A stretch of 64,000 nucleotides of DNA from Cenococcum geophilum 1.58 (Eukaryota; Ascomycota; Dothideomycetes; Gloniales; Gloniaceae), in contig KV748280.1 in assembly GCA_001692895.1 (NCBI GenBank), positions 222,597 to 286,596 on the forward strand, read 5' to 3'. Positions 1,066 to 63,680 of this stretch are shown here, piece after piece (positions within the stretch are counted from its first letter, which is position 1; each line of letters starts with the position of its first letter). The position numbers were made by a program, and so were the translations under genes. The notes beneath the pieces are model-generated. The model saw nothing but the letters and a program-made list of their open reading frames with translations. It searched no databases and had not been told where the DNA came from.

Positions 1066-2250
1066 ATGACTCCACCGACGAGTTTGTCGACGACGATCAT
1101 TCTCAATAAGTCAGAAGACTGGGAGCAATGGATCTGGCAACTATAAGCCCTTATGGATCAGTAAATTTGGGCCCACGTTGACCCAGCCACAGAAGCACCT
1201 TAAGAAGGTCTACTTGAAAAACCACCTTATCTAAAGGTCACAGATTTCAATGAGAATGCAACCTTATATGCACAGCTCTTGACGAATCAACAGAGAGCGT
1301 ACGAGAATAGTAGACGATACTACGACTAAGACATAAAGTACTTCCTGAAACAGGAAGAGCATCTGCAATAGATACGCACCTAGATCACGTCTACAGTATT
1401 GATTTAGAAAAAGCTACTACTTAACCCTTCCTTAACAGTTAAAGAATGGCTATCTTAACTAAAGGAGAACATAGAACCTACCTCGTCGTTTATTAGGAAA
1501 AAGGTATAATACTAGTATACGGAAGCCCTTAAGGGGTGTAAATAGTTGTCAAAATTAAACTAATGGCTAGATTAATGGGAACACGTAATATCCCTAGGAG
1601 AGAAGTATAAGATACCTTAAATATCCGAAGGAATCTGGCTTTAAGATTTAGCAGACGTTATTTAACCTTTTAGCGACGCTTACTATATAAAGTACACTAT
1701 CGAGTTAAATAACCCTTAGAAGTTAAGATCTTCTAAATATTATAGAGTAGTAAAGGAGCTGCAAGAAGGACTTATAAGACCCTTAAAGAAAGCCAATGCT
1801 ACTATAAGAGGAAGTACCTTTAATGCAGACTTTGTAGAGTAAGCGATTAAGGATTACTTTAATACTACTAAAGGTTTACGAAGAGGAGAGGCCTTAGTAC
1901 GTAATAGATGCTTAAAGAGAGCCGGGATACTAGTGGATAAGAAGACGTTTTATAAGAAGCTAACACCTAAGTGCTTAGCGTGCGGAATATAAGGATATTC
2001 CCTATAGGATTATTAGTGTTTATTTAAAGATAAGAGACCTATAGGAGTTATAATTAAAGATGCTCGTATTAAAAGGGCACTAAAGAAGGTAGAAAAGAAT
2101 AAGGAGCTCACTAACTAAGTTATAAAGATTAGACTTAAAGAATAAGAAGATAAGGCTTAATAATAATAGGATAAGAGTTAGGAAGTTAAGATTAAGGGAG
2201 AAGCTAATGCAATATTCCTAGAATCGTATTATACTGGTTAACTCCATTTA
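1066..2250 (+). pseudogene. copia gag relic
   Basis: The frame starts at ATG 1066 and reads through a typical fungal copia Gag N-terminus (ILNKSEDWEQWIWQL, then an ALMDQ segment) with in-frame TAA/TAG at expected Gln codons. A zinc-knuckle-like stretch is centred on 1972-2019: Cys-x2-Cys-Gly, then a Tyr where the His is expected, then Cys. Gag would package element RNA in cytoplasmic virus-like particles. The many stops rule out a functional product. The boundary with pol is approximate. Confidence 0.85.
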
Positions 2251-5200
2251 CTAAAGCTATTAACTATTCTTAACTTAGGAACCACTCTCCATATCTTTAA
2301 TAACCTCTTTTGTTTCTATAACTTTAGGAAAGCTCTAAGATATAAATATATTATCGCCGGCAGCTCAGAAGTGCCTATACTAAGCTACGGCAATGTCACT
2401 ATCTAAGTTATAAAACTAGATAAAAGTAAGGGAAACCTATATCTTAAGGACGTTGCCTTTTATACGGACTTTAATACGAATCTAGTATTATTCCGTCTAC
2501 TTTAAAAATAAGGGTACTACTAGGATAATAAAGGAGATAATAATCTTCTAGTTCGGAAGGATAATATAATCCTATGTTAAATAGAAGAACGTTATAGATA
2601 ATAGACTATTAAATACGTCTAATTAGGAAGCTTAAAATCCGCATTTAATATTAGCCGTCTGCCGCGCTACTAATGGAAGTATAGAGTATTGTTAAGAGAC
2701 GTTTGTCTAGATTTAAAAGGTAATGTATATTTATAGCATCTGCGTTTAGGTTATCTAGGACCTATAAGCCTTCATTATTTAGGTATTAACGCCTTAGGAG
2801 TTAAGCTTTAAGGCCTAAAGACAACGGAATGTTAATATTGCAGTCTCGCTAAAATTAAGCGTTAGGTCTTAAGAAGGTTCTTAAAACAGAATATTAATAA
2901 ACCTTATCTTAACCTCCATATTAACTAAACTAACCTTAAGGAAGTACATACTAGCTTCGTATAAGTTATACTTATCTATAATACCTTCTTAGGAAGAACC
3001 TTTTTGTATTTTATGATAACGCATAATAAGGAGAAGGAGATACTACAAGTACTTAAAGATTTTATCCAATGGATTTGTCTAAGGTATAACCTTAAAGTTA
3101 ACACTATTAGATTAAACAACGAGCTTAGGAGAAGGAGAACTCTTAAATAGCTACGGGCCTAAGGGATTATATTTAAGCCTTTAGCGCTATATACCTAAGC
3201 ATAAAACGGTACCGCCGAACGTTTAGGGGGTATAATTATTAAGAGAGCACGTATAATAAGAATTGCTACTAATCTACCACACAACCTATAGAACGAGATA
3301 GTTAACTACGCAGTCTACCTTTAAGATTGAACGCTACGGGAAAGCAATGGATAGAAATCGCTATATAAGAGGTTCTATACCTTCCTAGCTAATAGAAGAT
3401 TAAGAAAGCCGTAACTGGCGCATCTAAAAGCCTACGGCTGTAGAGCGTACGCAATAACGTCGGACGCCTAGCTGAAGAAGAAAAGGCTAAGTAAGCTAGA
3501 TCCGCGAGCCTATATTGGCTACCTCGTTGGCTATAACTCTACCAATATTTATAGGATCTGGATCTTATATAAAGGTATCGTCATCTCTACTAGGGACGTT
3601 ATCTTCAATAAAAAGACGTTCTTTAACGGTAAGCGAACGGATATCTTAAAGGACCTACATGCTAAATTAGACACGCTAATTGAGAAGATTTAACTCCCTA
3701 ATACCCTGACTAAGAATAAGGTCCTTCTAGAAGATAATGAAGAAGTATTTAAACCGTTAATTTAAGAGGAAGACGATGACATTGATGAGCCAGTTCGAAC
3801 CTTTGATGAGTTAGCAGATCTTAAGCTTGTAAGAGCTCTTAAAGATGTATACTATACGCTACCTCTAATAGAAGAAGATAAAGAATCTCTATGTTCCTTT
3901 TATATTGAGTATCCTATAAAGTTAGATATATAAGGTACTGATTAAGACGTCGCCTATTAAGTAGGAGACGGGTTTTATACTTAGGGGGTGTTTAACGACT
4001 TAGTTAAAGACTTATTTAAGGAAGCCTGTGATAATAGGTTTAAAGACTTTGTTACTAAAAGGATTACGTTAGCCTATTACGGCGCCTTTTTAGTAGGAAG
4101 GAAGTTTAACCTTAATAGTTGACTTAACGATAGTAAGCTGAAATTAGGTAGAATACGTAATGTTAGATTATATAGGAAGAACTTAACTCCGCTACCTTAG
4201 TCGATCCGCGACCTTAATACGCATCCTCTTCAAGATCAGTTCTAAGAAGCTTAATGAGCTTACCTGTAATTTTATTATTAAATAAGGTTGTTTTAAGAAA
4301 CAGATAAGAAGTACGCAAAGGGTTAGTAGGTCCTTAGCTTAATGTAGGTATTTGTTTACAAGACGGATAAGTACGGATTTCTCCAGAAATATAAGGCACG
4401 CTTAGTAGTTTGCGGAAATTAATAGGCCCTAGGAGACCTACCTATGAGAGCTACTATATTAGCTAGTACAACCTTCCGAACCCTTATAGCGATTACCGTA
4501 AAATTTAACCTAGAGACGATATAGATAGATATAGTTAATGTGTTTGTCTATTGCGATCTTAATAAGGTTATCTATATAAAGCTACTACTAGGGTTTAATA
4601 AAGGAAAGACAGATAAAGTACTGCGCTTAAGAAAAGCCCTTTATAGATTATAACGATTACTACTATTATAGCAGAAGAATTTCACAAGCTCGCTAATAGA
4701 ATTAGGTTTTAAAGAGGTACCCTAAAAGCCGTGCGTTATGCTAAAAGGTAAAATAGTTATCTTCTTTTATGTTAATAATATTGTCTTCTGCTACTAAAAG
4801 ATAGATAAGAAGAAAGCTTAAGAAGCAATTAAGGAGCTGAGTAAGGAATACTAGATAAGTACCCTTAGCAAACTAAAATAGTTCCTAGGAATCTATATGC
4901 TACGCAATTATAGCTAGAGGCTCCTATAGCTATCCTAGGAAGCCTATATTAAGAAGATAGCTAATTAGTATAAGATAGATCTTAAAGGGTGTCTTCTAGA
5001 TACTTCTATGGCAGAATTAGAACTTCTCCCTACTAATTACCAATTAATCCGTCTAACGCGTCCGTCCCCTAATACAGACCTATTAGTCCGTCCTATATCC
5101 CTACTAGCCTCTATAATACTATATTAGAGAAAATTAGGTTTAGTACTCTATATAGCTACTATAACGCGTCCAGATATTGCCTTCGCAGTATTACGGCTAG

Positions 5201-6297: not shown

Positions 6298-7215
6298 GTA
6301 CCAGAACGGCAGCTAGTAGAGGACCGTTGCTAGAACTAGACGACCGTCGCTAGCTAAACAACTATCGCTAGAACTAGATAACTGTTGCCAAAGCTAGACG
6401 ATCGTCGCTAGAACTAGACGACCGTCGCTAGCTAGACAACCGTTACTAGAACTAGACGACCGTCGCTAGCTAGACAACCGTTACTAGAACTAGACGACTG
6501 TCGCTAGAACTAGATAACCGTCGCTAGCTAGACGACCATTACTAGAACTAGATAACCGTTGCCAGAACTAGACAACTATTGCTAGCTAGACGACTGTTAC
6601 TAGAACTAGATAACTGTTACTAAAGCTAGATAACCGTACTAGAACTAGACGACTGTTACTAAAACTAGATAACCGTCGCTAGAACTAGACGACTATTACT
6701 AAAACTAGACAACCGTTACTAGAACTAGATAACCGTTGCTAAAGCTAGATAACCGTCGCTAGAACTAGACAACTATTGCTAGAGCTAGACGACCGTCGCT
6801 AGAACTAGATAACCGTCGCTAGCCAGACGACCGTTACTAGAACTAGACGACCGTTATTAAAGCTAGACAATCGTCGCTAAAACTAGACAACCGTCGCTAG
6901 CTAGACGACCGTTACTAGAACCAGATAACCGTTGCTAGAGCTAAACAATTATTGCTAGAACTAAACGACTATCGCTAGCTAGACGACCGTTACTAGAACT
7001 AGATAACCGTCGCCAGAACTAGACAACTGTCGCTAAAACTAAATAACCGTCGCTAGCTAGATAACCGTTACTAGAACTAGATAACCGTTGCTAGAACTAG
7101 ATAACCGTTACTAAAACTAGATAACTGTTGCTAGAGCTAGACGACCGTCGCTAGAACTAGATAACCGTTGCTAGAACTAGATAACCGTCGCTAAAGCTAG
7201 ACGATAATAACTAGC
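6298..7215. repeat. 18-20-bp minisatellite (CTAGAACTAGATAACCGTCG type)
   Basis: About 0.9 kb of tandem units close to CTAGAACTAGATAACCGTCG, alternating with shorter CTAGCTAGACGACCGTTA variants. Differences between units are largely C/T and G/A, as expected of RIP on tandem copies. Shorter stretches of the same unit recur at 12085-12190 and 12435-12530, so it belongs to a dispersed composite module. Confidence 0.9.
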
Positions 7216-18704: not shown

Positions 18705-19065
18705 AATACTTAAGGCTCTGGCTTAATTGTAGATCGACAGCTCTATAACCAGAGACTCTAAAGAAACGATCGCAATTAGGTAATTAAACGGGTAGAGAGC
18801 CAGGTAGAGAGCTAGGTAGAGAGCCAAGAACAATAGAGGCAATTAAGGCCTCGAAAACCTCGAAAGCCTGTAGAATATAAGGTGCGGTGGAACGAGGTTA
18901 ATTAGGTAAATGCTAGACACTAAAACACCACGTTTTGGAAGCTATATAGACAATATACTGGTATCAAAAGCTTAAATCAAGCTGATCGAGTTGATTTTGG
19001 TGAGGTCTTGGCGCTTAAAACCACGCTTTTCCTAAATAGGAAGGAGAAATCTCTTTCTGGGCCGT
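18705..19065. other. Less-mutated spacer with a short 12-bp repeat
   Basis: No gene recognised. Three units of GGTAGAGAGCCA-type repeat lie at 18790-18826. The 3' end of the Tc1 relic is presumably here. Composition becomes more balanced towards 19000. Confidence 0.45.
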
Positions 19066-19074
19066 CCTCCGTAC

Positions 19075-19116
19075 GAGTCTAAAGGTCGGAGAGTGTAGCC
19101 GAAAGCTCCGGGAGTG
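19075..19116 (+). repeat. Left terminal inverted repeat
   Basis: 42-bp end starting GAGTC directly after the left CCTCCGTAC. It contains AGTGTAGCCGAAAGCTCCG, matched by AGTGTTGCCGAAAGCTCCG at the opposite end. Confidence 0.75.
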
Positions 19117-19309
19117 TTCAAATACGCCACGTCGCAAAATCTTACACTTAATGAACTTTAGCCCCGTGCGCGCACACCTAATGAGCTTTTAATACAAAAT
19201 TCTTTAAAATTATCGCGATTAATATATTAAAGCTATATATTATTATATAATATTACAACCATACCCTATCTTTAGCGTATTTAAGATCGTGCAAATCTTA
19301 GCATTAAAA

Positions 19310-22300
19310 ATGGCCAATAATACGCAAGCATCCTAAAGTGCGCAAAGATGTATCTAGGATAGATTAATAATATATCCAGGATATAATCCAGATACCCTTA
19401 CGCACCTGCCTATCTTAAGTAGTTCTTCTATACTACTGCCAATAGAAGAAACTTAGCCTTTAATTAAAGACTTAGAACAATTACGGAAGGACTTCTTCTA
19501 TAAAGGGCAACGGGTGCAGAAGGAACGCATATGTGTAAACATTAAAGATAGTAATTAGGATATATCCGGCTTATATTGGGAGTACCACCAAGATATTTAA
19601 TCCCAAATACCCATACTATAACGATCTGCTAATGCCTCTTCTTTAACGATAGTAGTAAGTAGAATTATATAACGCGAGCTATATATAATATATAAACTAA
19701 TTATCTCTATAATATAGCCAGGCTTAATATTAATTACATAAACTAGATCGCTTGTAGTAGAAAGACTTATATTTAGTTAAGAGATACCGGAATATCCTAT
19801 ATCCTCTAAGCACGGGATTAGATATATTATAGATTTGTCTGGCCTATAGCTAAATAATAAGAATATTATAAAGATATACAAAAATGTAAGACACTATATC
19901 CTAGATAGATCTTATATATAACTTGGTTCTAATATAGATAGATGCAATACTCATATATATTAAAGAATAAAATAAGTATAATATACCCTCTTCTTGGCCT
20001 CCAAAAGTGTTTTAAAAGACAGATACCCTATTTAGGCGTGTTTTGTTACGAATATTTAGACCCTTAACTATAAAACTTTCATCACAAGTAAATTACAGTG
20101 GAGGACTGGGAAAGAATACGTAAATTGTGAGAAAAAGTATAATATATCTATAATATTATGCTACTATATCTAAGTTATAATATAGACGTCGCGAACTCTT
20201 ATATATTTCCTTGGCGATTTAATAGAATTAAATTAAGATAACATTAAACGAAGAGACATAAACACGTAAGACATTTATTTATATTATCTATTTTTATTAA
20301 CATATATATAGGCTTTATAATAGTATTTGTTATGCATTTTAGCACTAGATTGCCTGTATAGAGTAGAGTGCTAGTTGCAAGCCATATCTTTATATTGTAA
20401 AGTACACGGTTAGTGTCTAATAGATTCTAAATATATTACTACTATAACTAAGCTATAACTAGTCACTTATAGATAGACCTGTGGTAAGTATATACTATAC
20501 TAAGGGAAGTCAAATATAGAACCATGAAAAACACTACCAAAAGTCTCTTTCTTTAGTTTCAAAATACTTATTAAAATATTTAAGAGATTTACTTAACTAA
20601 GGCTATTAGGGTACCCTAGAAACCTATGCAGCGGTAGAGCATAGGAAGAAAAGATCAGATGATTGCGGTAAGTTATTATAATATGTATATAACTATGATA
20701 TAACTATAATATAATACTAATATATCTAGGTTGTAACCACGCCCAAGGGCCTAGAAAATGGGTACTAGCCCTATATAACGTGGAGTTTAATTATATATAG
20801 CCAGATAATATTAAGGATTGCCCTTATATTATTTTAACTTCTTACGGCAAATATATGCATCCTCTAGCGCCTCCGTCGAAGGTTCTAATACAGCTTATTA
20901 AAGAACTTTAATAATAAATCCAGCGACAGTTGGGGCTAGGGCTTACTCTAAGTATATTATATCCAAGCTATATTAATACTCTATCCTTACTCTATTAGGC
21001 TCTTTTACATATAGCCCTTTAATAAAAAAGTTTTGCGAAAAATATGATGTTACTAGCCTTCTAAGCCTTTATTAAAGCCTAGCAAATCTTAATAAGATTC
21101 GATACATAATTAAAAAGTAACAGCTTTTATTATTTCTACAAGGTTAAGATATACAAGGGGTAATATTTAAAAAGCATCTATATTATAAAACTGGTCCTAA
21201 ATATATATAAGATATATTCCACGAAAATAGTAAGCTAATAATTACATACTTTCAAAAAGGCTAGGCAGAAATACTATTAACGTTAAAAACGTTTAAAATT
21301 AATATGTCGTTTAAACGAGTTGGTACAGCTAGGCTAGATAAGGTTGTAATTGCTGTAAATATCCCTAGAATTAATAAAGGTATTATATAACCTAGTTATA
21401 TCACGGTTATATCTTTATTCTAATAAGGCTATAGTTATTACACTAATAAGAGTTTTTATAAACCAAGCCATGGGCCGATTAGCAGAGATATATTAACAAC
21501 TTTTCCATACTATATTCCGCTTATATAAGAATTACGGCTATCTAACTTATTGGAGTTATATCCATAAACGTGGATTTTATATAGCTCTTATGGATATAGA
21601 TAGGGCGCAGGCAAAAGGTATTTTATAATGCGTATGTGTTAAAGATATTACTGAAATATATTAGGGCTTGGCCTTTACCTAGTAGATATTAACCCCTCGC
21701 AGACCTAGCAGGGCTATATAAAGTCTGCAATTATATATTACCAAATCCACATTCTTCGCAGTATTTATTAGGTTATTAGAGCCGGAAATATAGGCTAAGA
21801 TAGTGTTAGGCAACACATGGCTTCGATTATAGAGGCTATAAGCCGTAAGCAATACTACAAAATTTTGGACGCGATTAAAGGTATAAAGATATTATATCCC
21901 TAATTAATCTATACTATATCTATATTCTAACATTTACGGTTATAGAAAAGTACAGCAATAACCATAAAATTGTAAACTAGTGTTAACATAAGCGATATAT
22001 ATATATTGCATCTGGAATAAATCTATATTATAGTAAAATGGACAGTAATATATTCTCTATAATTATAAAGAATACAAACGCTATTAAATGCTCCTATTTT
22101 TAAGCGAATAATCTTGGGCGTCGATTAAGCCTTTTAGCTACTATTTTAATGTTAGTATATCTTATATATCCGTAATATAGTATTATAATAACAATTATAG
22201 TGGACAAAGAATTGATGTTTTTAATTTTAAAGCGTGGAAGGCGTATTATTAGCATGGGATTTTATATATATCGCGAACTATATCTATTACCGAAAGAATA

Positions 22301-22979
22301 GCTCTAGTAAAGAAGCGTAAATATATAGATTTATTATGGCTCTAATATAGATATATCGCTAATATAATCTGCTATAATTCTATGAGTTTTAAAAGAGCTA
22401 GAAAAATTAAGAAAACAGGCCTGTACTGGCAAAGGAAAAGCTAATGCTATATCTATAAGTATTAAAGAGGATAAAGATTTTGATTTTAATAATATTATAT
22501 TAGATATATTATCTTCCAGAACTAATATACGCCCATAGTTGTAATTATGAAGTTCGCGAGGCGCACGATTAAAATCTCGCTCATAATCTCTTGCCTCTGT
22601 TTGCTCCGGTATATTATATTCTAGATCTTACCAAATTCTATAAAGCTAATATTTTTTAGTATCCTCTATTATAATATTAAATGATAGACAGGTTTCGCTC
22701 TCTTTTAGGCCTATTTCACCGTTAGGTAGGATTATCTAGATATATCCTTAATATATCTAGCTTATAAGCTAACTGTATCTAAGATATAAGAGTAGCTTAT
22801 AGTCCTTACTTTGTACAACTGTTACTTAATAAGCTTAATTCTCACAACAGTTAATGCTATAGCAATCCTAATTAAATATTCATAAGCAAGAAGCCCGGGT
22901 TTTACGTATGGAAGCTAAAGCAAAAGTAATTAAACTATAAAATCGGAAGATGGAATTGGAGCTTAGAAAATTAGAATGA
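19310..22979 (+). pseudogene. Intron-containing transposase-like gene P1, RIP-mutated
   Basis: Starts at ATG 19310 (MANNTQAS). Intron 1 (19350-19391, GTATCT...CCAG) joins in phase to a frame of about 80 codons whose only stops are TAA/TAG at expected Gln positions (PLIKDLEQLRKDFFYKGQR within it). Further stretches include a Pro-rich HPLAPPSK segment (about 20860), DIDRAQAKG (about 21595) and YYQIHILRSI (about 21736-21765). The last fits the C-x2-H motif of Mutator-type transposases with Cys changed to Tyr (TAC 21739-21741; His 21748-21750). Other probable introns: 20139-20188, 20683-20746, 21380-21427. A basic/acidic coiled-coil-like tail (KLQNRKMELELRKLE) precedes TGA 22977-22979. Role as transposase is inferred. 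Confidence 0.65.
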
Positions 22980-23212
22980 GAACTTGGTTAATATAAATTT
23001 TTATATTTATAAGCATAAAGGGCAGAGGTTATATTAAGGTAATTACCTAGATAGAGTAACATTATAATGTCTAAGAGAAAGCCTAACCTAAATTCTCTGC
23101 GCTATGCCTATGCTCCGCGCAATGTTCTATGGCCTATGTATAATGCTTTATAGTGTCCACGATATAACTAGGATATAACTAGTATATATCTAAGATGTAT
23201 AAACGCCTTAAC

Positions 23213-25200
23213 CTATTTAACCCACACGGTGTAGTCCTCCTTAGCATTAAACGACTCCCCATTATTAAAGTCATCTATAACCTTTGGCAGCATTGTATTA
23301 GGTAAAATAAAGTTCTATTTATAATTAGATTATAGATATATTAGTAATATAATTAAAAACTATAAGCATACCTTGTTAAACCAGATATACGTACCCCAGT
23401 TAAATAAGCATACTATTTGCGTTAGATCTAAGATATAACAGAAATATAACTAGCAAACTTACTCTTACTACTAGTTCTACATAAAAAATATTTCTGATTC
23501 TTAGGCTTGCCAATAACCTTAAACATCGCGACGCGATTAGGCTATATTAAAGTTAGATTATAGTTATATAGTAATTATAACTGCCTAAACTTACCTTGCC
23601 CTTAGAGGTTAATGGAATTCTAGAATGGAATATAATACGTATCTGCTTAACTAGCTCCTCTATATAATCCGGTTAGATCTATAATATAATAAGATTATAA
23701 ATAATAACATACCTAGATCTGCTGAAGTTGCTTTGCGTTTTCTATAACCTTTGGCCGTTAAGGGTGCATTTTTAGTTAGGGGGGCTAAAATATATTAGCA
23801 ATATATCCTAGATAGAAGAACATTAGTTCAAACCATTATAATATATTCTAGCCTTTCTTACTACTTTACTAATAGGGCATATGACCTGTAGTTCCTCCTT
23901 CGTATAAATAGCTCTATAAAGTGTCTTTTAAGCCGCTAAAATAAGTTAGATCTAGGATATAATATAGATATATGGATAAACATACTATCTAAATTATCCA
24001 ATTCCAGTTCTTTTTAACCTCTAGGCTTTATACTCCTAATTATATAGCCTCCACCTTTCTTTATTTTAAGGTTAGAAGGAGCTTATAATGTGGACACATC
24101 TAGGATTTTACTGGAAAATGCGACTTAATATGCTTAATTAATCCTCCATAACTATTTACGAATTTTTTTTCCTAAGCGCAAACAGTGTGCTCGGCATTTA
24201 GATCCTATTATAGTTAGATTTAGGATATAATAAAGATATATAGCACTTATAACTTACAGTCTTCCTAATAGCACAATCCTATCTATAGAAAATCTCCTCT
24301 GGTAGAATATGGATGAGGAAATGTTTGCTGTGGGGCTATATTTAGGTTACATCTTGGATATAAGCTAGATATATACTAGATATTACCTTAATATAAAAGA
24401 ATAGAATCTACCCTGGGCGCTTATTAAGTCTAAGATACTATACCTTAGTATATTAAGCGGGGGCACCAGAAATGCGCCTCTTTATAGTATTTGGCTGAAG
24501 AGTAGCATTATAAGTGCTAGAACCCTCGCCCTCACTACCATCCGAGTCTAGATTAGAATATGGCCTAGAAGCTACTACCCTATTCGCCGGAGTGCTATAT
24601 ATAGCTATTATAGTGGCGTTTGGATCTTGTATAGAGTCGCTAGGGCTACTAAGGACTTCGTTAATAATCTATTAAGGTTAGATTATAGATATAACGTGGT
24701 TTTATCTAAAATATAACTTATATCTTTTACGACCTCCATCCCAGTAAAAGTATTCACCTTCCTATTTTACAGAAAATTCTCGGTCTATATCCTAATTAGA
24801 TCCTTCTTATAACCACCAGAAGTTACTTTACCTTATTATGAAATTGCGTATTTAGACTATCGAGTGGTGTCTATTTTATGTTAGATTATGGATATAACCT
24901 AAATATATACCTACGCTACTTATATAGGAGTTATCGCAGTTGTTCTCTAGAGGCTAAAAGGGATTTGGTGGCAACTAATATGGTTAGGTTAGATTATAAT
25001 AATAATAGGGATAGAATATTAATAAATACCTCTCCTACTCCAGATTGCTGGTTCTCTAGGCTCTATAGCTACATTAGATCCTTAATAAAACCTTAATATA
25101 ACCTTAACATAACCTCCCAAAACTTACCTCATCTATATTATTACTAAGCTCTTTTAAAATCGTGTTGGATAATAGGAAGTATTTAATTAAAGCTTGCAAA
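23213..25200 (-). pseudogene. Second gene P2 of the transposon; 13 exons, unknown function
   Basis: Introns with GT...AG ends at 25127-25069, 25029-24975, 24910-24871, 24730-24669, 24386-24336, 24257-24205, 23985-23925, 23869-23785, 23712-23660, 23594-23542, 23462-23413 and 23371-23315 (40-85 bp). All exons join in phase into about 437 codons ending at TAG 23213-23215. In-frame stops are almost all TAA/TAG at Gln codons, six of them in 23986-24204; the last five exons (23784-23213) have none. Visible: a Ser/Asp/Glu-rich segment (DSDGSEGEGS), a possible zinc-finger-like F-x6-L-x2-H-x3-H (about 24150), a basic GYRKRK and a C-terminal NWGTYIWFNKNF. No start codon found. Family not recognised; an accessory protein like MuDR mudrB is an analogy only. 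Confidence 0.7.
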
Positions 25201-25341
25201 CAGCTATAACGACGTTATAATCGAAATATAATCGCGTTATCGACTCTAAACGTGATGCGATGAGAATTCAATTGTGTACTAAGTGAAGCTGTGTCGGAGT
25301 CAAAATATCAACACTAGCCGAGGTTTTAGTGCCTTGGCGGG

Positions 25342-25383
25342 CACTAACGGAGCTTTCGGCAACACTGGCCGAGCTGTATGCTC
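25342..25383 (-). repeat. Right terminal inverted repeat
   Basis: Reverse-complement partner of 19075-19116, ending directly before the right CCTCCGTAC. A 14-bp near-duplicate (CAACACTAGCCGAG at 25300 against CAACACTGGCCGAG at 25360) suggests an internal duplication in this end. Confidence 0.75.
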
Positions 25384-25392
25384 CCTCCGTAC

Positions 25393-25840
25393 AGTGATGT
25401 CAAAATTATAAATTCGCTACGCGCATCCAATCTCGCTTGGTTGCCACCAACTGTACATAGTAATTGTAGCGAAGCCGTATACTTGGCTGCAAGAACCTTC
25501 GCGATCCCGCAGTGTCGTAATCTTCATTAAATATCGTAAGGTTTCCACCCGTATTATTAATATTGCTAAATTTCATCGACCTCTCTGCAAAGAGAGCGTT
25601 GTATTTGCATTTTTGGCGGTCATAAGAGAGGTGTAGTTACGGGGGAGAAGGGGGAGAAGAGGAAGCGTATATCTTCAATTTAGTTCTCCTGGCCAACCAA
25701 AGCGAATCTCCAGGGCAACCAAGGCGATTCTCCAGGGCAACCAAAAAGGTTCTTGCGCGTAGCCACAACCGTTCGCTTCAATTACAAGCGAGACTAGATG
25801 CGGGTACCAAATTTAAAATTTCGCAGCGCCGCTAAAGGGG
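25393..25840. other. Left part of the normal-composition island; 22-bp repeat
   Basis: Balanced base composition, little RIP. About two and a half copies of a 22-bp unit (CCAGGGCAACCAAGGCGATT...) lie at 25690-25745. A G-rich purine tract GGGGGAGAAGGGGGAGAAG is at 25640-25660. No convincing gene. Confidence 0.55.
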
Positions 25841-25926
25841 GGGGTGCAGTGCCAAGCTGCACCGTGCATGAACACCGTACCGAGCTGTATGGTGTCCATG
25901 CACGGTGCAGCTTGGCATTGCACCCC
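25841..25926. repeat. Long hairpin (38-bp arms, 10-bp loop)
   Basis: 25841-25878 is the reverse complement of 25889-25926 except at three positions, all G/A transitions; the loop is ACCGAGCTGT. Arms start GGGGTGCA. The loop motif CGAGCTGTAT also occurs at the right transposon end (25370-25379). It could be a MITE-like foldback or a small palindromic duplication; overlapping open frames on both strands are artefacts of the palindrome. Confidence 0.85.
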
Positions 25927-26260: not shown

Positions 26261-28282
26261 CTAGACGAGAACAATGTCTTCCAGATCCTCAAAGTCATCC
26301 GGCCATAGCTCTCCGTTCATGATCCCATGCACATAGCAATGTGTGACCAGCCGATAGCCACCTTCCACCGGTTTCAAGACGAGCGGCTGTTCCAGCCCGC
26401 TCACAATTGCAATCTTGTCTCCCGTCCCCAACGATTCTGGAAGAGGATCCGCGGCAGTGCCGAACCGGTTGTTCTCCGTGTAGAAGAAGCACTTGTCCTG
26501 ACAAAAGCCAATCGCCAGTCCATGGAACCTCAATCCTGCTTCTCCTAAAGCACCACCCCGAAGTCGCGCTATAGAAGTTTCAGGTGGAAGTGTTTGACGA
26601 ATCTGCTGGAGATAGTCTTCGCGTTCGGATTGTCCACGGGGGATGGTTCCTCCTTGGCCCATCGACTCGAGAAGCCTCTCAAGCAGGCCAATTTCCCCCA
26701 ACCGCATGGTATTAAACCACGTTTCGAATGCCCCGCCTAACAGGTTGGCTTCGGGGCTGTCATTAACAAGCGTCCGCCGAAGAGCTTCCCCGGAATCAAT
26801 ACCGCCAGAATAATCCGCCCACTGACTCATATCCACCCAAGACTCCATCACCAGATAGCTAGGCTCCAAGGTAGCCAGGTCCATCCGAGGTCTGGGTTGA
26901 TCCGAAGTCGCGCGATTGCCGTTGTTTATCAAGAGAGGATCAGCCTTGAAAATCACAGTATCCACGATTTTGCCTTTCAAGATCAGTGCTTTCCTATCGT
27001 CCGAAAAATCCCAAAGCGCAATTGAATCTCGGTCTGAGGCTGCAAATCTACCCCGCGTCACGGCGTATCTGGAATCGGTGTTGGCCCAGCCATTCTCCGA
27101 AAAGTCGGGTACCCACGATGGAAGATCATCCTGACGGCGTGCAGACGGAACGTGATATAGAATCTGAAGGTACTCGTCAGCCTGGATACAGGAGATGACA
27201 GCTTCTCTAAAGACATCTTCGATAGGCTTCCTATAATCTGGCAAATCAAACGCGATTTCTAGTTCCTGAAAGATACCGAATAAGCTGAAGATCCTGTCTT
27301 TCGGCTCCGTCGCGCCTTTCCGTCGGATATTCTCGAGAATCGCAAAGACCAAAGGATCATTTTCCGGGTTGGGGAGGAATCTGGCGGCATTTTCTTCTAC
27401 CGTGGCCCTCATTTCTGGCATGCGGCGGAGGGATATGTTCATAGTTAGTCGTTTCTGCAGTGCCACAGCTTTAGTCCAGTTTCCCGGTGGGCATCGAGCA
27501 GCTTGCATGCCATCGATAAGGGCTACAATAATCATCCAGGAGAACTCCTCGCAGCCGCATCGTATGTAGACGCGATCAGGCGCGGGAAGAACTACTTCTT
27601 GAATTGTCCACACCCGCTGGAACCAGGCTCGTTCGAAAAGCGGATGAAAGGGCTGTCTCATCGGCTCTCTCTCATCTATGGCCAAGTTAGCAAAGGACTC
27701 AAACGCACGAAGCGGGAGGTGCTTACATCCATCATGGAGCTGTCTCAGCGCTTCGTGGTACCCTCGAAGAAATTCCGCGCGGTTGGCAACCTGGTTCGCC
27801 ATCGCCGGATCCAACAGGGCCCTGACGTCCGAAATGTGTTGAATAACTCTTTGCATCTCGTCGTCCATCTTCCCCAGCCAGACGACGACTCTTGCAGCGG
27901 TCTTGTACACGTCACCCATCATAGCTACCTGACAATTCCGTTCCAAGATGGCTTCTGGTACACCTCGTCGCTGATCAATACAGATGCTATCGATCCAAAG
28001 CCTCCGCTCCCCGGTCCTATCTCGCAGCTCCCGAATTGCATCCTCGCAATTCGGCGTAATGAGTAGTGATTGAGTATCGCATGTGATCTCAACACTCGGT
28101 GTTTGCCCATCCCACGTGTATGACAGCGCTGTGTAGTCGCCATTATAAGAAGGGTAGTCGTCCAGGGAAACCGCCGCAAGGCTGCATTGTATGGGATCAT
28201 CATTGTTTTCGGCCGGCTGGAGGAGAATGATGCGAATATGCCTCGGCCCCAAGGGCGTAGGGTGAACAAAGGTTTGTGCCAT
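26261..28282 (-). CDS. HET-domain (heterokaryon incompatibility) protein, 673 aa
   Basis: Single uninterrupted frame from ATG 28282 to TAG 26261. The HET domain spans about residues 50-230: YTALSYTWD (50-58), the LLITPNCEDAIRELR region (73-87), RRLWIDSICIDQ (93-104), ERNCQVAMMGDVYKTAARVV (114-133), WLG (135-137) and RAWFQRVWTIQE (218-229). The C-terminus has the familiar tail: FFYTE (599-603), GDKIAIVSG (621-629), PLVLKP (633-638), YVHGIMNGELW (650-660). HET proteins trigger cell death when genetically different hyphae fuse; the partner is unknown. Cytosolic by absence of a signal or membrane segment. Length is normal for the family. It is free of RIP stops and sits in balanced-composition DNA between transposons. 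Assignment to the family is secure; allelic specificity is not inferable. Confidence 0.96.
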   Translation of the reverse strand: MAQTFVHPTPLGPRHIRIILLQPAENNDDPIQCSLAAVSLDDYPSYNGDYTALSYTWDGQTPSVEITCDTQSLLITPNCEDAIRELRDRTGERRLWIDSICIDQRRGVPEAILERNCQVAMMGDVYKTAARVVVWLGKMDDEMQRVIQHISDVRALLDPAMANQVANRAEFLRGYHEALRQLHDGCKHLPLRAFESFANLAIDEREPMRQPFHPLFERAWFQRVWTIQEVVLPAPDRVYIRCGCEEFSWMIIVALIDGMQAARCPPGNWTKAVALQKRLTMNISLRRMPEMRATVEENAARFLPNPENDPLVFAILENIRRKGATEPKDRIFSLFGIFQELEIAFDLPDYRKPIEDVFREAVISCIQADEYLQILYHVPSARRQDDLPSWVPDFSENGWANTDSRYAVTRGRFAASDRDSIALWDFSDDRKALILKGKIVDTVIFKADPLLINNGNRATSDQPRPRMDLATLEPSYLVMESWVDMSQWADYSGGIDSGEALRRTLVNDSPEANLLGGAFETWFNTMRLGEIGLLERLLESMGQGGTIPRGQSEREDYLQQIRQTLPPETSIARLRGGALGEAGLRFHGLAIGFCQDKCFFYTENNRFGTAADPLPESLGTGDKIAIVSGLEQPLVLKPVEGGYRLVTHCYVHGIMNGELWPDDFEDLEDIVLV

Positions 28283-28796
28283 GGAGGACTTTCGGACCTA
28301 TCTTACAGGCGCGTAGTCAGTGGCGGTCGAGCTTAATTATAGCATTCGATGTGGGAAGAAGCAATGCCAGGGGCTGTGTAAATATGTTTGTAAGCGCCGC
28401 GAGGCGACCTCATCACCAGAGGCGCGAAGGAGATTGGCATTGCCACATCGCACCGCGGAATTAGAATCCGGGAATCTAAATTATGTGGTGTCCGCGGCTC
28501 TAAGATATTTTGATGAGGGGGACGTAGTGTAAGGTGGAAGAAGCCTCTGCATTTTAACAGGTTTACAGATTCTACACCACCTCGTCAATTCCGGTTGTTA
28601 GCGCCTACTAGTGACGCCTCTCGGGCGGAAATCCTCATATAGATTAGTATGAGTTTCCCCGTCTTGGCAGCGAGCTTTAAAAGACCTCAATATCAAAATT
28701 TATGAAGCTTTTTAAAACTAATGATTGTATGGTAGATTGCCTATATACGAATATTTCTAAAGTAGCCAAATGAGTGTCAAAATCAACGCTTAGCAA
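28283..28796. other. Upstream region of the HET gene
   Basis: About 400 bp of balanced composition before AT-rich transposon DNA resumes near 28700; it presumably holds the HET promoter. No clear TATA box or operator. A short inverted pair CACCGCGGA / TCCGCGG (28451-28497) is visible. Two short open frames here look like chance. Confidence 0.5.
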
Positions 28797-63239: not shown

Positions 63240-63680
63240 AAATATATTTCGAGATATATTTCGAGATATATTCCGAGATATATTTCGGGGTGTATTCCGA
63301 GACATATTTCGAGACGAATTTCGAGACGTATTCCGAGACGAATTTCGAGACGTGTTCCGAGACGAGCTTCGAGACGTGCTCCGAGACGAGCTTCGAGACG
63401 TGCTCCGAGACGAGCTTCGAGACGTATTCCGAGACGTGCTCCGAGACGAGCTTCGAGACGTGCTCCGAGACGAGTTTCGAGATGTGTTTCGAGACGCGCT
63501 TCGAGACGAATTCCGAGACGAGCTTCGAGACGAGCTTCGAGACGAGCTTCGAGACGAGCTTCGAGACGAGCTTCGAGACGAGCTTCGAGACGAGTTTCGA
63601 GACGAGCTTCGAGACGTGCTCCGAGACGTGCTCCGAGACGTGCTTCGAGACGGGCTTCGAGATGATTTCGAGATGCATTT
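63240..63680. repeat. 12-bp minisatellite (CGAGACGAGCTT)
   Basis: About 36 tandem units near CGAGACGAGCTT, with CGAGACGTGCTC and TTCGAGACGAA variants. The 12-bp period without stops opens three frames (RDELRDVL and SETSFETC on plus, SKLVSEHV on minus). The plus frame 63202-63819 runs past the array into unique sequence, but nothing supports it as a gene. The array is CpG-rich, in sharp contrast to the AT-rich flank. Confidence 0.92.

Follow-up and report, generated by a model that had tools for sequence, protein, structure and literature searches.

Between positions 19075 and 25383 of the stretch analysed here (hereafter the window, 64,000 nucleotides of Cenococcum geophilum 1.58, contig KV748280.1) lies a DNA transposon, flanked by a direct repeat, bounded by inverted ends and occupied by two convergent genes, tail to tail, both with predicted introns (Table 1). 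P1 is transposase-like, and P2 lies inside the same ends on the opposite strand and is present at further copies of the element. The host is a fungus whose genome is 3-4 times larger than those of other Dothideomycetes and consists to 75% of transposable elements (PMC5816826). A sequence-only reading of the window had described the locus as an autonomous, two-gene, Mutator-like element. The 9-bp direct repeat and the 42-nt inverted ends that it reported are indeed there, the two arms being 79% complementary. The layout of the genes holds as well, with the correction that the stop codon of P1, in a reading made jointly from nine copies, falls at 22989-22991 and not at 22979.

Table 1. Features of the transposon, in window coordinates.
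Feature	Position	Strand	Basis or remark
Left 9-bp target duplication, CCTCCGTAC	19066-19074	n/a	sequence read
Left terminal inverted repeat	19075-19116	+	arm pairing; other copies begin there
P1, DDE-like transposase gene	19310-22991	+	nine-copy reading; broken in window
P1 modelled exons	20730-20951, 20999-21379, 21435-21617, 21665-21880, 21946-22172	+	first third and tail incompletely modelled
P1 exon with C..H-x-H zinc-finger-like stretch	20730-20951	+	HTHPPAPP in nine-copy reading; similar in C110 relative; not named by Pfam
Codon of presumed first catalytic Asp	21301-21303	+	FEIDMSFKR in nine-copy reading; Asn in window
Cys codon of C-x2-H motif	21739-21741	+	Tyr in window
Codon of presumed catalytic Glu	22086-22088	+	TNAVE; Lys in window
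P2, 15 predicted exons and 14 introns, 393 codons before stop	23213-25136	-	nine-copy reading
Span of the 14 predicted P2 introns (47-65 nt)	23315-25127	-	TTATATCnnnGATCTAAC close to every 3' splice site
Right terminal inverted repeat	25342-25383	-	arm pairing; other copies end there
Right 9-bp target duplication, CCTCCGTAC	25384-25392	n/a	sequence read

Since inverted repeats of 25-47 nt pairing at 71-88% are frequent in this AT-rich window, the arms alone are a weak proof, and the ends were for that reason examined at their many copies in the genome that contains the window (177,193,698 bases in 162 contigs). The left end has at least 40 matches there and the right end at least 41, with the window copy counted in both. 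Among the 39 other matches to the left end, 26 begin within two bases of the edge (query positions 8-11), 12 begin at query position 15, five bases inside, and one at position 1, before the edge. At the right end, 17 of the 40 other matches finish at query positions 125-127, the edge being 126, and the remaining ones finish inside or slightly outside it. Target duplications were scored at 22 of 30 left-end loci, namely those with a right end on the same contig and strand, and in this scoring the edge could slide a few bases to GAG, GCTC or ACTC. The 9-bp duplication is perfect in 14 pairs and agrees at eight positions in two pairs and at seven in one, the mismatches of these three being all transitions; a further three pairs show, by eye, an 8-bp duplication offset by one base (one with a mismatch). 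The expectation of the sequence-only reading that other copies would share these termini and carry 9-bp duplications was thus confirmed. The duplications of the paired copies fall in the range of 8-11 bp given for Mutator-like elements (MULEs), and the length of the recurring ends lies within the 14-500 bp given for this group, some members of which have no inverted repeats at all (PMC6446971).

In principle, the ends and the duplication of the window could be a product of chance in AT-rich repeats, with both genes being unrelated debris. The frequency of comparable inverted repeats would fit this explanation, as would the fact that none of the 15 loci extracted from the genome holds a stop-to-stop frame of 120 codons. 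It is, however, so improbable as to be negligible: the copies are repeatedly co-terminal and bear duplications, and 462 wrong pairings of ends, used as a control, reached an agreement of 6/9 at best, which refutes a chance origin. The ends of the transposon are real.

Nine of the extracted loci (the window copy and L061-L068) are of the same size, 6286-6320 bp, and can be aligned along their full length. They fall in two groups, with differences of 393-472 transitions versus 0-9 transversions within groups and of 476-589 transitions versus 50-56 transversions between them. Sites variable for C and T, on either strand, are located in CpA in 666 of 1234 cases, as against 99 of 1516 conserved C's. 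Such CpA-biased transitions are the mark of repeat-induced point mutation (RIP), and two DNA-methylase matches, whose open frames run to 1192 and 730 amino acids, are present in the genome. The best 16 of 116 matches to P1 in the genome contain 5-21 stops each; stop-free matches are short single-exon pieces, some of them from a distant relative, and no intact copy was seen among the matches listed. In the window, three presumed key codons of P1 are altered, comprising the Cys-to-Tyr change already recognised by the sequence-only reading and those of the first Asp and of the presumed Glu. In other words, the window copy is complete but dead, inactivated by RIP. The term autonomous has to be abandoned for it, because the copy is full of RIP-type changes and the best P1 matches all carry stops.

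The protein encoded by P1 was read jointly from the nine copies, with predicted GT-AG introns picked by hand. Besides the motifs given in Table 1 it contains ALMDMDGAQ and YCQIH, so that the order of motifs is D-D-CxxH-E, as in Mutator transposases, the assignment of the D and E residues being drawn from two sequences. In general, MULE transposases are characterized by a DDE triad with C/DxxH between the second D and the E. Presumably, the finger of P1 resembles FLYWCH/WRKY-GCM1 fingers, and we take its core to resemble MULE cores. By eye, the tail of the protein is Ser/Arg-rich and then charged and coiled-coil-like. Three similar AT-rich stretches in the gene, at 20135-20180, 20413-20458 and 20691-20736, are spaced by exactly 278 bp and are probably introns.

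A relative of P1 is present in the same genome (C110:139.9-142.6 kb, within the extracted loci L079/L080, C110:137474-143600). All 11 of its modelled exons are open, with one junction out of phase, and its product is 36% identical to P1 over 412 amino acids (E 5e-82), sharing both D's, the I-H and TNAVE. Relatives of this protein were not found in IMG/VR, from which records near this genome were possibly excluded. Directly downstream of the P1 relative, on the minus strand of L079 (about 1450-1650), lies a C-terminal fragment of a DNA methylase (PF00145, E 3.9e-6, a 79-amino-acid piece) with an internal tandem duplication, which is possibly a captured sequence.

The second gene, P2, retains two internal stops in the nine-copy reading. 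Its exons 7-8 encode a C-x3-C..C..H-x3-H-like stretch, and the C-terminal exons 13-14 a C-x2-C..C..C knuckle that is weakly DUF3716-like: the last 48 amino acids match this family with E 0.0014 and 18.9 bits, below the cut-off of 22. No literature connecting DUF3716 with transposons was found. On these sequence features, P2 would be a zinc-finger-like, DNA-binding helper. Eighteen of its 19 best matches in the genome lie within 4 kb of a known element end, the exception being C97:255940. In addition, a diverged subfamily of six copies (L069-L074) has kept both ends and the DNA of the P2 region in every copy. In the same six copies, matches to positions 1085-3432 of the consensus, which correspond to the P1 core, do not exceed about 80 bp, and tblastn at E 0.01 detects no P1; these copies have the appearance of deletion derivatives. 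A different origin for P2 would be the capture of a host gene fragment, in the style of Pack-MULEs, with no function as a helper. MULEs tend to take up fragments of host genes (PMC6446971), and the methylase piece adjoining the C110 relative would be in keeping with such a habit. Nevertheless, capture appears improbable for P2, given its proximity to element ends throughout the genome, the retention of its DNA in the diverged subfamily and the lack of an intact host homologue, stop-free P2 matches being at most 35 amino acids long (105 of 143 candidates scored).

Taken as a whole, the segment 19075-25383 very probably represents a family of two-gene DNA transposons with a Mutator-like mode of action, in a copy that is complete but inactivated by RIP. 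P1 would be the transposase and would use the zinc-finger-like region at its N-terminus to bind the 42-bp ends; its D-D-E core would then cut and rejoin DNA, the cut in the target being staggered by 9 bp. P2 may assist as a DNA-binding protein, by means of its finger-like stretch and cysteine knuckle, in a role comparable to that of MutB of Mutyl or of the second gene of MuDR.

A number of results weigh against this reading. Two of the 22 paired copies lack a duplication, and a search of the genome with the joined flanks of the element did not reveal an empty site. That is, the query matched copies of the repeat on the left flank, most of which end at or just past CCTCCGTAC, and one match on C52 crosses the joint at 78%; a longer match on C34 was rejected as an empty site since, over 45 bases, a different sequence follows CCTCCGTA. 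The P2 protein is recognisable at E 0.01 in just two of the six copies of the diverged subfamily, and the likeness to DUF3716 falls to E 0.054 when the whole of P2 is compared. In the C110 relative, Arg replaces the Cys of CxxH (RxxH), and the 6.1 kb examined around it hold no convincing inverted ends and none longer than 22 nt, the best candidates measuring 13 nt, or 22 nt with several mismatches. The comparison of P1 with transposase profiles, which the sequence-only reading had proposed as a check, gave no match for the nine-copy protein (Pfam and NCBIfam to E 5, PHROGs to E 1), and the C110 relative has none in Pfam to E 10; weak Pfam rows below cut-off are zf-Mss51 for P1 (E 0.0088) and DUF3116 for the relative (E 0.076-0.14). 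A homologous transposase in the sense of PF10551, PF00872 or a profile match was accordingly found in neither protein. Finally, hhalign and BLAST comparisons of P1 with two of the MULE domains that occur elsewhere in this genome produced no useful match. This last negative carries little weight, because even between the two MULE domains the similarity detected is marginal (hhalign E 0.0012, BLAST 0.034).

Alternatively, P1 could belong to a separate, still unnamed DDE superfamily outside Mutator that also gives 9-bp duplications. We regard this as a serious possibility, though less likely than not, and it is compatible with the Mutator-like mechanism proposed above. It would account for two proteins that escape the profiles in a genome where PF10551 matches 79 places, most despite stops and none, as compared by eye, inside the coordinates of the copies. 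It also fits the lack of detectable similarity to the two MULE domains and the wider spacing of the motifs: D1-D2 and D2-to-Cys distances are 79 and 33 in P1 and 77 and 34 in the C110 relative (D2-E, 127 and 125), versus 62 and 21, and 69 and 28, in the two MULE domains. On this view, the likeness in the order of motifs would reflect a general D-D-(C/DxxH)-E plan that is common to several transposase superfamilies. On the other hand, the 9-bp duplication, the length of the ends, the order of motifs and the presence of a helper gene are all MULE-like, and the alignments compared were shallow (two sequences each, with an effective sequence number, Neff, of about 1.5-1.6). Judged by its sequence, the P1 lineage has diverged too far for its position in the Mutator superfamily to be proved; of the earlier label Mutator-like, the duplications and the inverted ends stand, P1 is DDE-like in the order of its motifs, and homology is not established. 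As for other groups, Pfam contains models for the KDZ transposase and for CxC, and neither was matched when P1, its relative and P2 were scanned against the whole of Pfam. Sequence searches of solved structures returned one chance row for P1 (E 0.87) and none for the relative, P2 or an alignment (A1).

The two genes of maize MuDR are convergent, the second lying on the opposite strand, and its ends are far longer than 42 nt. Hop of Fusarium oxysporum, a MULE of a filamentous ascomycete, makes a 9-bp duplication and has one gene, and it was against Hop that the sequence-only reading had set the two-gene architecture of the present element. The element shares with MuDR the combination of a transposase with a second gene, and differs from it in that P2 has no named family, save weakly DUF3716. 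Table 1 of PMC6446971 gives 9-10 bp duplications for the group of MuDR (mudrA and mudrB) and lists subgroups of the Hop group with 1, 2, or "1 or 2" open reading frames. The two genes are there, as claimed; their novelty is not, as a two-gene fungal MULE as such is not new, because Mutyl of Yarrowia lipolytica has been described (PMC6446971, Table 1), with genes mutA and mutB, 22-bp ends, 9-10 bp duplications and a C2H2 finger. A DNA-binding role is given for mutB (PMC6446971, PMC9865632), whose orientation is antisense in Table 1 of PMC6446971 and the same as that of mutA in the introduction of that paper. Compared by description and not by sequence, both are two-gene fungal elements with inverted ends, duplications in the range of 9 bp and a second protein with a DNA-binding role, putative in the case of P2. 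They differ in that P1 is unrecognised by MULE profiles and in that P2 has 14 predicted introns with a common motif. The present element is an addition to the Mutator-like families of fungi, well bounded and with two genes, and indicates that profiles such as PF10551 overlook a transposase lineage of which one relative is still open-frame in the same genome.

The introns of P2 deserve separate consideration. Their sequences were taken from the nine-copy reading, with predicted borders, and by exon lengths ten would be in phase 0, four in phase 1 and none in phase 2. All 14 contain, in sense orientation and with 0-3 mismatches of 15, the motif TTATATCnnnGATCTAAC, which ends 8-15 nt ahead of the predicted 3' end of the intron and in 13 cases finishes in TAAC or TAAT, both of which resemble a branch point. 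Its mismatches number 6-9 in fourteen exon pieces and 3-6, a poor match, in the four modelled P1 introns. The P2 introns resemble one another (mean pairwise local score 13.5, versus 8.5 after shuffling; sd 0.23, 100 shuffles). In the raw window, counting both strands of this nearly palindromic motif, 31 of the 39 matches with up to three mismatches lie inside the element, as against an expectation of 8.2 for the window as a whole. Genome-wide, the exact motif occurs at 54 sites and its reversed control at one; 52 of the 54 lie no more than 10 kb from a known end or 2 kb from a P2 match, a zone covering at most 1% of the genome, and the other two are on C27 and C157. The C110 relative shows a similar trend, as its 12 introns that were read score 11.5 against one another versus 8.0 (sd 0.23). 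Eight of them contain, at variable position, the palindrome AACRYGTT, which contributes partly to this likeness and of whose ten sites in the 6.1 kb eight are intronic.

A tentative and rather doubtful explanation is that the P2 introns arose from one another inside the element, in an introner-like spread within one mobile element, and the distant C110 relative may have done likewise with AACRYGTT. Introners and introner-like elements of fungi are many introns of one common sequence (PMC9860276, PMC4457414). They differ in being spread over many host genes, whereas TTATATCnnnGATCTAAC is nearly restricted to a single transposon family; a set of near-identical introns dispersed through many host genes was not found, 52 of the 54 exact sites being in or beside element copies. 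Alternatively, the motifs could be sites to which zinc-finger proteins encoded by the element bind, stored in introns between the coding exons. The evidence points both ways: the fixed place of the motif near the branch point speaks for intron multiplication in P2, and the variable place of AACRYGTT in the C110 relative for stored protein-binding sites. A literature search on transposase-gene introns with a common branch-point motif returned nothing on the topic. An element-private motif in all 14 predicted P2 introns raises a testable question, namely in what way introns come to multiply, or acquire a second role, within a transposon.

Around the element, the left flank (18960-19074) is part of a different repeat family, most other matches to which stop at CCTCCGTAC or shortly beyond it, and the copy of the transposon on C4 likewise sits at AGAACCTCCGTAC. 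On the right, 8 bp beyond the duplication, begins a repeat of about 450 bp (25401-25849) that resembles a miniature inverted-repeat transposable element; it has inverted ends and is matched at dozens of places in the genome. A GC-richer island adjoining the transposon carries, on the minus strand at 26261-28297, an open frame of 678 codons with a HET domain (PF06985, E 9.2e-29). Long tandem arrays are present at 6323-7202, with a period of 78 bp, and at 63308-63673, with a period of 12 bp, the second being open in several frames.

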